A stretch of DNA of 46,779 nt from a virus. The notes under the pieces are model-generated. The model was not told the DNA's origin. It did no database searches and was given only the letters and a program-made list of their open reading frames with translations. Positions 18,814-24,897 of the stretch are shown in pieces. Where the stretch lies: the IMG/VR virus record IMGVR_UViG_3300034073_002788, positions 1 to 46,779 of that record; one strand, written 5' to 3'. A program made the position numbers and the translations under genes. How positions within the stretch are numbered: the stretch's first letter is position 1; every line of letters starts with the position of its first letter.

Positions 18814-19928
18814 CTACCACGATCCACACCAACACCTTGGCCACTGCGCTCAAAACGATTATGCCCGCCGTACCCGGCAAGAGCAGCCTGACGGTGCTGA
18901 ACAACGTGCACCTTCGTGTCGATGGCACCACGCTCACGCTCACCGCTACTGATCTGGCGATTGGCATTGCTCACCGCGTGACACTCCCCGCCGACGGAGG
19001 CTACTGGGCACTCACGGTACCGGCCAAGACGCTCAGCGAGATCATCGCCAAGCTCCCAGGCGGCGACGTGACGATGGAAGCCAACCTGGAGCGCTCAACC
19101 CTGCGCCTGGGCGGTATCAACTTCAAAACGAGCATTAACGGCATCGACGCGGACGAGTTCCCCAGCGTCCCTACCGCTCGTGACGTCGTGGAGGAGTTCG
19201 TATCGATCCCGATGGCGCAGTTCCAGGCCGGTATCCGGAGCGTTGCGTTCTGTGCGTCGCCTGACGACGCCAGGCCGGTGTTGCAGGCCGTACACCTGGC
19301 GCTGCGCTCGGACGGATACACCATGACGGCAGCCGACGGCTACCGCCTGGCGCAGTACCACGCCAAGACGGCACTGAGCGTTCCCGAGTACCTCGGCGAG
19401 CCGCTCTTGATCCCCGGCGTGGCACTGCGAGAGATCGCGAAGTTACGCGGTGAGACGATCAGCCTGGGTGTGACACCCGGGCGTAATCAGATCGTCGCGC
19501 TGACCGAGGATACCGCACTGTCAAGCCGCATGATCGAAGGCCAATACCCGGACGTCACGCGTATCATCCCGCAGCAGGACGCCACGCGCATCGATCTCAA
19601 CGATCCCGGGGCGCTGCGTCGGGCCGCTGAAGTGGTGCGGGTGCTCATGGCGAACGAGCAGGGCACGCCGATGCACCTGCGCATTGATGGCACCAACGTC
19701 ACCGTCTCAACGACCAAATCCGAGACGGGAGAGGCGGAGGTGCACGTCACCGGCTACGGCCACTCGGGGCCGCCGGTTACTACCGCCGTGAACGTGGGGT
19801 ATCTCCTGGAACTGCTCCCCACGCTGCCGCAGCAGTACACCCTGGGCACCGGCGGCGCCAGTTCGCCCGTCGTGTTCCGGGCCTCGGGCCTCATTCACAT
19901 CATCATGCCCATGTCGATCCGCAAGTAG
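18810..19928 (+). CDS. dnaN: DNA polymerase III beta sliding clamp
   Basis: A 372-residue protein starting with GTG 18810 (AGGAG upstream). Full-length similarity to bacterial beta clamps: LATALKTIMPAVPGKSSLTVLNNVHLRVDG at the start, the domain 2 signature VAFCASPDDARPVLQAVHLAL followed by TAADGYRLAQ, and the C-terminus HIIMPMSIRK, matching the usual YLIMPMRL end. It encircles DNA and tethers the polymerase. No phage polymerase gene is seen, so it likely recruits the host enzyme or diverts it to phage DNA. Confidence 0.9.
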   Translation: MTTTIHTNTLATALKTIMPAVPGKSSLTVLNNVHLRVDGTTLTLTATDLAIGIAHRVTLPADGGYWALTVPAKTLSEIIAKLPGGDVTMEANLERSTLRLGGINFKTSINGIDADEFPSVPTARDVVEEFVSIPMAQFQAGIRSVAFCASPDDARPVLQAVHLALRSDGYTMTAADGYRLAQYHAKTALSVPEYLGEPLLIPGVALREIAKLRGETISLGVTPGRNQIVALTEDTALSSRMIEGQYPDVTRIIPQQDATRIDLNDPGALRRAAEVVRVLMANEQGTPMHLRIDGTNVTVSTTKSETGEAEVHVTGYGHSGPPVTTAVNVGYLLELLPTLPQQYTLGTGGASSPVVFRASGLIHIIMPMSIRK

Positions 19929-20571: not shown

Positions 20572-21424
20572 ACTCCTCAACGCGATGCGCCGTAAACGGC
20601 GAAGCATCGCGGAGATTGCCCAGCGCCTGGGCCGGACGCGGTCGTCAGTCAACGCGTACATCACGCGCAATATGGACAGCGTCGTGCAGTATCCACGTCG
20701 TCACCAGAACGAGCGCCAACCCTGGAGCGAGCGTGACGACACGCTCATCATCGAACTGGCCGAGAGCAGCACTACTATCAAGCGCATGCGCCAGATCCTC
20801 AAGCGCAGCAGCAAATCGATCCGCGACCGGTTGCGCACCCTGCGCGGGAACGGCTCCATCATTCGCCGCGCCAGTCCGGAAATGCTCACGGCGCGAGCGG
20901 TGGGCCAGCTGCTAGGCGTCAGTGATCAGACGGTGCGCAACTGGGTGCGTTACATGGCGCTCCCAGCGATCATCCACGAGACGCGGAGCCGCCGGTTTCA
21001 CGTCATTCACTCAACCGATCTCTGGCACTGGCTCGGACGCCCTGAGCATCAGCACCTCGTGAGCCTGGCCACCGTTACCGATCCCGAGCTTGTCGCCTAC
21101 CTGCGTGAGCAGTGGAGCCGCGAAGAGTGGCTGAACATGGCGCAGGTGGCTGAGCAGTTGTGCCTCGGCATGTCGGCGACGTTCAACTGGCGCACCCAGG
21201 GCTGGCTATCCTGCTACTATCCCTACCGAAACTATTGCGTCGTTCGCAGAGACGAACTCGAACGAGCGATTAAGGAGCAACGCCCCTATGGACAGAGACA
21301 AACCCACCCTTCGCCTCCTCGGCGCTCTGCGCCACGCAACAGGCCGGGCAACGATCGAAACGATGGCCGACGATCACTGGGCCGAGGCCGAGCGTCTGGC
21401 GGCGTCGTTACATCGGCTGATTAA
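20486..21424 (+). CDS. Multi-HTH DNA-binding protein 2 (paralogue)
   Basis: 312 residues if started at ATG 20486 (20480 is possible); both overlap the previous gene in another frame. It has two SANT-like repeats (EWTADELELLNAMRRKRRSIAEIAQRLGRTRSSV and PWSERDDTLIIELAESSTTIKRMRQIL). These are followed by TARAVGQLLGVSDQTVRNWV and MAQVAEQLCLGMSATFNWRTQGW, matching the module order of the preceding protein. The last 45 residues are basic low-complexity sequence overlapping the next gene by 137 bases, and may reflect loss of an earlier stop. Confidence 0.65.
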   Translation: MNSTLLSHPISTERSAAPRRREWTADELELLNAMRRKRRSIAEIAQRLGRTRSSVNAYITRNMDSVVQYPRRHQNERQPWSERDDTLIIELAESSTTIKRMRQILKRSSKSIRDRLRTLRGNGSIIRRASPEMLTARAVGQLLGVSDQTVRNWVRYMALPAIIHETRSRRFHVIHSTDLWHWLGRPEHQHLVSLATVTDPELVAYLREQWSREEWLNMAQVAEQLCLGMSATFNWRTQGWLSCYYPYRNYCVVRRDELERAIKEQRPYGQRQTHPSPPRRSAPRNRPGNDRNDGRRSLGRGRASGGVVTSAD

Positions 21425-23271: not shown

Positions 23272-23300
23272 TTCACAAGCTATAGTTAGTATGATATAGT
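23272..23300 (+). promoter_or_regulatory. Candidate promoter for the downstream early genes
   Basis: TTCACA (23272-23277), 17-bp spacer, TATAGT (23295-23300), in the 109-bp AT-rich gap between 23236 and 23346. A GCTAAAATTGCTC 13-mer at 23237-23249 is shared with the endolysin start region (5840-5828). Confidence 0.5.
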
Positions 23301-23345: not shown

Positions 23346-23591
23346 ATGACTATCAATCAGCTCAACGCCGAACTCAAGGCCCGTGTCGCCGCCGCCGGAC
23401 TCAGCACCTACGTTGCCAACGCCATTCTCCGCAACGACGTGACGCCCGCGATGCTCGACAACGCCGCGATCGCCTACCTGGAGCGGTGGTACTGGGACGC
23501 GCACGAGGCGATTGTCCAGTCGGAGGAGCGTGTAGCTTCTGCGCAGAAGGCCATCGACGAGTACCTGGCTAGCGGCGAGAGCCTGTTTTAG
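23346..23591 (+). CDS. Small helical protein of unknown function
   Basis: An 81-residue, largely helical acidic protein (LNAELKARVAAAGLSTYVANAILRNDVTPAMLDNAAIAYLERWY). AGGAG lies ten bases before ATG. No family recognised. It is followed immediately by the first structured RNA element, with no separate terminator, so RNA and gene share a transcript. Confidence 0.65.
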   Translation: MTINQLNAELKARVAAAGLSTYVANAILRNDVTPAMLDNAAIAYLERWYWDAHEAIVQSEERVASAQKAIDEYLASGESLF

Positions 23592-23592
23592 C

Positions 23593-23673
23593 CTCCAGTC
23601 GTGCGGGAGGGGCTACGGCCCCTCCACTACCGTAGCAGTCGGTAGCGCCGCCAACGTGGCGGTGGGCGTGGAG
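23593..23673 (+). ncRNA. Structured leader RNA, copy 1 (four-way junction)
   Basis: Closing stem CTCCA (23593-23597) with TGGAG (23669-23673). Hairpin 1 is 23606-23625 (GGAGGGGC/GCCCCTCC with a UACG tetraloop closed by C-G). Hairpin 2 is 23627-23645 (CTACCG/CGGTAG, loop TAGCAGT). Hairpin 3 is 23646-23664 (CCGCCA/TGGCGG core). Junction segments GTCGTGC and TGGGCG are identical in copy 2 while the stems differ by compensatory changes. It ends seven bases before the SD of the gene at 23694. Confidence 0.75.
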
Positions 23674-23693
23674 AGCAAGAGGAGAACACCGAG

Positions 23694-24119
23694 ATGCAGT
23701 ACAACGTATTGGTTCACTCGCATTTGACGGACGACGTTATCGAGCTGCCGGGCACCGTGGTTTCGAAGGGCGACGTTACGATGCACCCGATCTACGCGGA
23801 GGTACAGAAGTTCGTGTTCAACGTCGCGGAGAATGACGCCGAGGAGTTCGCCGCTGCGTGCGAGCGCCTGGACGCGGTGGCAATGTATTGGCCCGTTTCT
23901 GTAGAAGAGACTGAGGCTGAGAAAGAGGCCGCGCAAGCTGCCGATCTGGAGCCGCTGAGCGAGTTGCGCATCAGCGAGATTGCCGAGCTGCTCGATATGT
24001 CCGATAAGTTCGTTGATACGTTCTGCCACGCCGATTGGGGCGATCCCAACCATCGTGCTTGGCTGCACACCTCCACCAATCGGGCAATTGCCAACTGGAT
24101 CCTCGCCTGTACGCGCTAG
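23694..24119 (+). CDS. Acidic protein of unknown function
   Basis: A 141-residue acidic protein (ENDAEEFAAACERLDAVAMYWP, VEETEAEKEAAQAADLEPLSELRISEIAELLDMSDKFVDTF). The C-terminal half may hold a degenerate HTH (RISEIAELLDMSDKFVDTF). AGGAG precedes ATG 23694 by nine bases, directly after structured RNA copy 1. Unknown role. Confidence 0.65.
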   Translation: MQYNVLVHSHLTDDVIELPGTVVSKGDVTMHPIYAEVQKFVFNVAENDAEEFAAACERLDAVAMYWPVSVEETEAEKEAAQAADLEPLSELRISEIAELLDMSDKFVDTFCHADWGDPNHRAWLHTSTNRAIANWILACTR

Positions 24120-24121
24120 CC

Positions 24122-24202
24122 CCTCCAGTCGTGCAGCGGGCGCAAGCCCGCTCCAGGGTAGAGTCCCTGGCCCGTGGCAAGTGGCCGCGGTGGGCGTGGA
24201 GG
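24122..24202 (+). ncRNA. Structured leader RNA, copy 2 (four-way junction)
   Basis: Closing stem CCTCCA (24122-24127) with TGGAGG (24197-24202). Hairpin 1 is 24135-24152 (AGCGGGC/GCCCGCT with a GCAA tetraloop). Hairpin 2 is 24153-24170 (CCAGGG/CCCTGG, loop TAGAGT). Hairpin 3 is 24172-24190 (CCGTGGC/GCCGCGG). Junctions GTCGTGC and TGGGCG match copy 1. The 3' strand of the closing stem is GGAGG, part of the SD of the gene at 24214, so folding could hide the ribosome site. Confidence 0.75.
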
Positions 24203-24213
24203 AGGAGTGAGAT

Positions 24214-24426
24214 ATGAACCACATCACCCCGGAGAACGTTCGGACGGCCAGCCCCGAGCTGCTGGCGGCAATCTGTGCTGTCGTCAACGCGGCGATCGAC
24301 CATGACGGCGCGTTCAACAAGGCGCACGCGCACATGACGAGCATCGTGGTGCCTGAGTGGTACCACTACGGCATCGCCGAGGCGCTGGTTGAGTTGGCCC
24401 GCGTGCAGCAGGAGCGTCTGTCATGA
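24214..24426 (+). CDS. Small unknown protein under structured RNA copy 2
   Basis: A 70-residue helical protein (PELLAAICAVVNAAIDHDGAFNKAHAHMTSIVVPEWYHYGIAEALVELARVQQERL). GGAGGAGGAG precedes ATG 24214 and overlaps the RNA closing stem. No family recognised. Confidence 0.65.
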   Translation: MNHITPENVRTASPELLAAICAVVNAAIDHDGAFNKAHAHMTSIVVPEWYHYGIAEALVELARVQQERLS

Positions 24427-24689
24427 CGCTTGACGACCGCCTGCGGCGCGTGGGATACCACCTCACGCGCCGTACCCTGGGCGACGGTTCTAAGGTGTGG
24501 TTCGTCGCCGCGGACTCGCCCTACGGGGCGAAGGGCTATCACTGTCGGACGCTGGCGGAGGTGCGCGAGCTGTGCCAGGCTCTCACCGAGTGCCACGCCA
24601 AGCGCGGAGCCGTGACTAACTACGGCGGCGTGTGGCGCTGCCACGAGTTAGGCGAGGAGTACCAACACCGTGACAACGAACGCTACTAA
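24423..24689 (+). CDS. Small unknown protein
   Basis: An 88-residue protein overlapping the previous stop as ATGA. Contains LGDGSKVWFVAADSPYGAKGYHCRTLAEVRELCQAL, a small alpha/beta fold. Unknown role. Confidence 0.6.
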   Translation: MTLDDRLRRVGYHLTRRTLGDGSKVWFVAADSPYGAKGYHCRTLAEVRELCQALTECHAKRGAVTNYGGVWRCHELGEEYQHRDNERY

Positions 24690-24852
24690 GCGCGGTCGCC
24701 CGCCGTTCGCCGACGGCCAACCGCGGCGCGTGAGCGTCTGCATGACGATCCGCGAGGATATCCTGAAGCAGGTCGACAAGTTGGCCGCCGAGCGCGGCGT
24801 CACGCGATCGGAAGTGGCCAACGAGTTGCTAAGCAGAGCCATTCCACAATAG
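24670..24852 (+). CDS. Ribbon-helix-helix regulator
   Basis: A 60-residue protein beginning with GTG 24670 (GAGGAG upstream; overlaps the previous gene by 20 bases). Basic start (KRGRPPFADGQPRR), strand VSVCMTIRED, then ILKQVDKLAAERGVTRSEVANELLSRAI, a clear CopG/Arc-like RHH. It closes the early operon and is a candidate regulator of the early-to-late switch. Confidence 0.75.
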   Translation: MTTNATKRGRPPFADGQPRRVSVCMTIREDILKQVDKLAAERGVTRSEVANELLSRAIPQ

Positions 24853-24865
24853 GCCCACGACGCGC

Positions 24866-24897
24866 AAAAAAGCCCCTGGGAGCGTTCCCAGGGGCTT
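24866..24897 (-). terminator. Strong terminator of the late operon (convergent with early genes)
   Basis: 12-bp perfect stem AAGCCCCTGGGA/TCCCAGGGGCTT. On the minus strand it is followed by six T. It ends the leftward structural transcript; on the plus strand it can also stop the early operon, though with little T run. Confidence 0.85.

Follow-up and report, generated by a model that had tools for sequence, protein, structure and literature searches.

A covarying four-way-junction RNA between small early genes of unrelated phages, with a possible role in transcript splitting

Two related RNAs in one run of small genes

Why would a phage place two copies of one structured RNA in consecutive gaps of the same run of small genes? 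The stretch of DNA that raises this question, referred to here as the window, is a virus record of 46,779 bases (IMGVR_UViG_3300034073_002788) with genes for an HK97-type capsid, a prohead protease and a terminase on its minus strand and genes for a helicase and a DNA polymerase sliding clamp on its plus strand. The capsid and its counterpart in Streptomyces phage Chymera are 44% identical, a distance too great for host assignment. Close to the end of the plus-strand genes lies a run of five small ORFs, preceded on the same strand by a promoter-like site at 23272..23300 (TTCACA-17-TATAGT with a TG upstream of the second hexamer, a consensus match only). RNA copy 1 occupies the gap between ORF1 (81 aa, 23346..23591, +), whose stop codon lies 1 nt before it, and ORF2 (141 aa, 23694..24119, +; SD AGAGGAG). 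RNA copy 2 occupies the gap between ORF2, whose stop codon lies 3 nt before it, and ORF3 (70 aa, 24214..24426, +), whose SD lies within GGAGGAGGAG, next to the 3′ strand of the RNA's closing stem, P1. No family match was found above cut-off for ORF1, or for ORF2. The final ORF of the run (24670..24852, +) encodes a ribbon-helix-helix protein of the CopG/Arc type (60 aa, with a Pfam match). Where the convergent gene blocks meet, a GC-rich hairpin flanked 5′ by an A run (24864-24897) resembles a minus-strand terminator; a simple terminator scan did not call this hairpin.

Both RNAs lie on the plus strand. Copy 1 (23593..23673, 81 nt) consists of P1 (23593-23597/23669-23673), the core segments GUCGUGC (23598-23604) and GGCG (23665-23668), and hairpins H1 (23606-23625), H2 (23627-23645) and H3 (23646-23664). 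Copy 2 (24123..24201, 79 nt) repeats this arrangement with P1 at 24123-24127/24197-24201, the core at 24128-24134 and 24193-24196, and hairpins at 24136-24151 (H1), 24153-24170 (H2) and 24171-24192 (H3, with a bulged U). Indeed, the two closing stems with three hairpins each that an initial annotation had described are both present and fold far better than shuffled sequences (copy 1, -49.7 kcal/mol, z = -4.8; copy 2, -50.5 kcal/mol, z = -4.0), none of 200 shuffles of either copy being equally stable. The window contains two occurrences of GTCGTGC...TGGGCG where 0.15 would be expected.

The same annotation was accurate on the exchange of a UACG for a GCAA loop in H1 and on the H2 stems, CTACCG/CGGTAG in one copy and CCAGGG/CCCTGG in the other. 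Other details needed adjustment. Its span for copy 2, from 24122 to 24202, includes one extra closing pair. The junction segments that it took as constant, GTCGTGC and TGGGCG, do occur in both copies, but the true constant 3′ core is GGCG; the preceding UG is part of H3, which is closed by C-G, G-C or A-U depending on the copy. Similarly, an outer CTCCA/TGGAG is common to the two window copies but covaries in the family as a whole (AUCCA/UGGAU, AGCCA/UGGCU, UGCCG/CGGCA). Finally, copy 2 was said to pair the downstream SD. The first GGAGG of GGAGGAGGAG is indeed paired, but the AGGAG nearer the ATG is free, and across the family the SD mostly lies outside the stem, so that SD sequestration is not a common feature.

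Covariation and distribution of the family

We scanned viral contigs and 84,980 bacterial and archaeal species genomes with degenerate patterns and scored the results with covariance models built here; the patterns were exact and partial and may have overlooked members that diverge more strongly. This search returned further covarying copies between genes, for a total of 20 in the analysed records. They comprise 18 distinct sequences and come from 14 contigs, of which 13 are viral records; about ten lineages, having few proteins in common, are represented. Besides the two window copies there are three each on contigs G004 and G006, two each on G009 and G014, one each on G001, G002, G005, G007, G008, G011 and G012 (identical to G013), and one identical sequence in two records, G813 and G814. 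The window phage is related to G006, G012 and G013, and G007 is related to G009. The GC content of the contigs ranges from 53 to 73%, and a comparison of the lineages apart from G813/G814 found no protein common to all.

Every one of the 18 sequences decomposes as P1 (5 bp) - GU - CG - UGC - H1 - H2 - H3 - GG - CG - P1′. The element is thus a four-way junction of P1, H1, H2 and H3, 73-89 nt long, in which an invariant GUCGUGC on the 5′ side faces GGCG on the 3′ side. The core formed part of most search patterns, so that its invariance is tested independently only by the scans that omitted one side; these returned members with both sides intact. Two pairing registers are possible for the core, CG/CG leaving GU bulged or GUC/GGC leaving one G bulged, and covariation does not separate them. 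Among 17 sequences, H1 has 4-9 bp and H3 5-10 bp; their loops are for the most part unconserved and include several UUCG, UACG or GNRA tetraloops, and H2 has a fixed 6 bp with a loop ending in AGU, AGA or CGU. P1 covaries at pair 1 (A-U/C-G) and pair 2 (U-A/G-C), and at pair 5 (A-U/G-C) in G813/G814. On an alignment made with a model that contains this structure, which biases it toward that structure, although the hand decomposition agrees, the paired share of scored cells is 98.8% and 11 pairs show double changes. The double-change cells number 46 as compared to 12.4 in shuffles, none of 500 shuffles reaches any of these measures, and slid registers pair only 34-45% of cells. Covariation is seen in all four helices. 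Compensatory changes throughout, together with a strict sense orientation across unrelated phages, demonstrate selection at the RNA level. For practical purposes it is certain that the element is a structured RNA under selection, and the 18 distinct covarying homologues bear out the annotation's argument to that effect.

The family appears to be new. An Rfam search, likewise proposed at the outset, gave no match overlapping any copy, and Rfam 15 contains no match at the gathering score or at relaxed E-values. No matching RNA was found in the freely accessible papers searched. By these two measures this is a previously undescribed RNA family, in line with the annotation, which knew of no described counterpart. 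Several known types were considered and rejected. Taking a hammerhead ribozyme to require a CUGAUGA ... GAAA core, a cleavage triplet NUH and a three-way junction, we found that core in none of the 18 sequences, and no Rfam hammerhead match to them in the same searches that detect a hammerhead elsewhere (see below). A hairpin ribozyme came into question since CCAGUC and the H2 loop both contain an A-GUC motif, but its partner loops are missing. Twister-sister, a candidate by junction type, has no Rfam support even at relaxed E-values. A tRNA or tRNA-like gene was dismissed since ARAGORN and the Rfam tRNA model find none in the window, and an intrinsic terminator since no copy has a T run after P1 and the scan found none in the window region.

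Among the 84,980 bacterial and archaeal genomes a single copy was found, on G011 (L273, JABFRT010000045.1), a phage-like contig with terminase and helicase genes and a tRNA in a MAG titled Hyphomicrobium; this contig is probably misbinned into the MAG or a prophage. It also carries degenerate tandem copies inside a DNA methyltransferase ORF. No real copy emerged when 796 bacterial genomes, forming two groups picked around MAGs titled Chloroflexia and Actinobacteria, were scanned by pattern, and searching isolate phages and plasmids at the nucleotide level yielded short chance matches only, with no copy in isolate phages. The pattern matches L124/L131, L125, L127, L129, L132-L134, L138, L232, L356 and L368, as well as matches of 20-28 bits in bacterial genomes, were set aside as chance, having no matching helices or being found only through containing the search pattern.

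Placement between cistrons and a neighbouring hammerhead

All 20 copies lie in the sense orientation between two ORFs. In 17 of them the distance between the upstream stop codon and the start of the element is -2 to +5 nt (11, 13 and 34 nt in the remaining three), and an ORF with an SD begins 6-53 nt downstream. Two or three copies may stand 330-530 nt apart within one gene run. The flanking proteins mostly belong to no families and have no common function. Small CopG/Arc-like proteins are encoded close downstream of the element in G005 (L271:10104-10373, minus strand) and in G007/G009 (L270:3328-3615); the two are 33% identical, and the G009 protein has no Pfam match. Together with the window's ribbon-helix-helix protein, they are possible regulators of these gene runs. 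Some 2.3 kb upstream of the RNA copies, G007 (L265:3822-4043, minus strand) and G009 (L270:113-334, plus strand) also carry a HEARO RNA (Rfam RF02033, 146 bits).

One contig places a known ribozyme in the same setting. In G014 (IMGVR_UViG_3300045136_000380) Rfam identifies a type II hammerhead (Hammerhead_II, L274:13123-13206, minus strand; 40.0 bits against a cut-off of 37) with GAAAC, GUC and CUGAUGA all intact, positioned between two small ORFs directly after a TAG stop and in the same gene run as the new RNAs. A 143-kb sample of control viral DNA gave no Rfam match at all. Downstream of the hammerhead, as of both new RNAs, follows a leader of about 49 nt, CGCCCCAGGCCCGGGCGGGGGCGGGAAGCGGGC...GGAGGAA and then ATG, and the hammerhead leader is about 91-92% identical to the new-RNA leaders (E = 6e-15). 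This GC-rich leader of roughly 50 nt precedes four small genes (L274/L275, reverse complement: 18991-19042, 19417-19465, 20789-20842 and 21389-21416), the fourth and partial one following a terminator-like hairpin rather than a ribozyme. Since the hammerhead and the new RNAs each follow a stop codon and share this leader, they appear to occupy interchangeable positions in one operon, a co-location found in G014 only.

Possible functions and known systems

Because all copies are internal to a polycistronic run and follow a stop, and because the G014 hammerhead stands in an equivalent slot, the placement argues for transcript cleavage rather than an SD-sequestering leader. We favour transcript splitting, in which the new RNA would divide polycistronic early transcripts between cistrons and each small gene would thereby gain its own mRNA end. 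In full, with division most likely through self-cleavage by a new class of small ribozyme, this reading is a tentative one that we hold at somewhat less than an even chance. Self-cleavage itself, for which the case draws on one phage and on analogy, is plausible at nearly that level. Slightly less probable again is the specific proposal of a four-way-junction self-cleaving class with a GUCGUGC/GGCG core, interchangeable with hammerheads and cutting early transcripts into single-gene mRNAs. We infer both steps here, that the RNA would be cleaved and that it would cleave itself. The variable H1 and H3 with a fixed 6-bp H2 fit a core with peripheral arms, and we infer that H1 and H3 are those arms. 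A compact conserved core with peripheral stems variable in sequence and length is indeed what the family has, although aptamers share this trait and it is not diagnostic of a self-cleaving ribozyme. Other points weigh against a ribozyme: the core is unlike that of any known ribozyme family, local duplication could have carried the G014 leader to elements with different chemistry, and a ribosome terminating at the adjacent stop codon would probably unfold P1.

The position between small early genes and the very stable fold would equally suit a processing or stability element that depends on protein, its core being recognised by an RNase or RNA-binding protein, of host or phage origin, that cuts or protects the mRNA. 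The exchange with a hammerhead in G014 argues for cutting and is silent on the cutting agent. We nonetheless think this account unlikely, if still a serious one: no common phage-encoded partner was found, contigs of 53-73% GC share few genes, and RNase III sites are marked by structure, not by a sequence-invariant core.

Rather unlikely, too, is translational control, either by a leader that binds a protein or small molecule or by a structure that couples or uncouples translation of neighbouring genes, comparable to the start-associated sequences of Cluster K mycobacteriophages. The initial annotation's suggestion of a translational leader or protein-binding RNA thus counts among the rival readings. 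The conserved core and H2 loop would suit an aptamer, and in the window clade, G001 and G011 the downstream SD overlaps or adjoins P1. However, the SD is clear of P1 in G004, G005, G007, G008, G009 and G014, leaving no common expression platform; an ORF lies upstream of every copy, and finding a hammerhead in the equivalent slot would be unexpected. An SD-sequestering riboswitch or leader was rejected on the same grounds, the SD lying outside P1 in most lineages and the window region having no terminator-like site.

A role in cis in antitermination or RNA polymerase binding, comparable to that of the put RNAs in phage HK022, could explain a structured RNA with a conserved core early in short phage gene runs, but we regard it as very improbable, as two or three copies per run each follow a gene rather than a promoter and the hammerhead exchange does not fit. 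Recombination may have left traces at the copies: between the window and G006, RNA copy 1 matches at all 81 of 81 nt, yet the ORFs on its two sides reach alignments of no more than about 43% and 59%; in G011 the RNA has duplicated genes on its flanks; and G009 reads gene-RNA-gene-RNA-gene (L270:2642-3046) where G007 reads gene-RNA-gene (L265:1449-1522), a difference consistent with deletion of the intervening gene by recombination between RNA copies. That the element is mainly a gene-cassette boundary promoting homologous recombination, with incidental structure, is the least credible account of all, being disfavoured by the compensatory changes in all helices and the strict sense orientation, which need RNA-level selection; recombination at the copies is probably a by-product.

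Several known systems invite comparison. RNase III cuts T7 early mRNA at intercistronic sites which, like the new RNA, are structured and lie between small early genes; these sites, known for structure rather than an invariant sequence, are hairpins lacking the GUCGUGC/GGCG core and are cut by a host protein. The HK022 put RNAs are likewise phage-encoded, cis-acting, structured RNAs of early operons, but have another fold and are promoter-proximal, with two sites in separate operons. Twister-sister is a four-way-junction ribozyme that, like the new RNA, has a conserved asymmetric internal loop adjoining P1; it is in the searched Rfam library, yet does not match the element. To our knowledge there are only about a dozen classes of small self-cleaving ribozymes, several of which were discovered as structured RNAs near known ribozymes. 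An undescribed covarying RNA that shares its slot and leader with the G014 hammerhead is a direct lead to another class.

The start-associated and extended start-associated sequences of Cluster K mycobacteriophages, repeats of 13 bp located at the start site and in some cases accompanied by 17-bp inverted repeats (PMC3203893), resemble the new RNA in being repeated ahead of some small non-structural genes of different families; they are confined to one phage cluster, whereas the new RNA is a four-way junction of 73-89 nt that covaries across unrelated phages. The closest parallel in placement is with type II hammerheads (RF02276), which are also intercistronic, cluster in several copies around single prophage genes of changing identity, and are inferred to cut long phage transcripts into gene-length mRNAs, with in vitro cleavage demonstrated for three tandem arrangements (Perreault et al. 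2011, PMC3088659). The G014 example shares with the new RNA both slot type and downstream leader. The new RNA differs from it in lacking the CUGAUGA/GAAA core, in its four-way rather than three-way junction and in that its cleavage is putative. Even without self-cutting, the element represents a new family of structured RNAs placed by unrelated phages between early genes, and it bears on the reason why phages carry ribozymes between cistrons.
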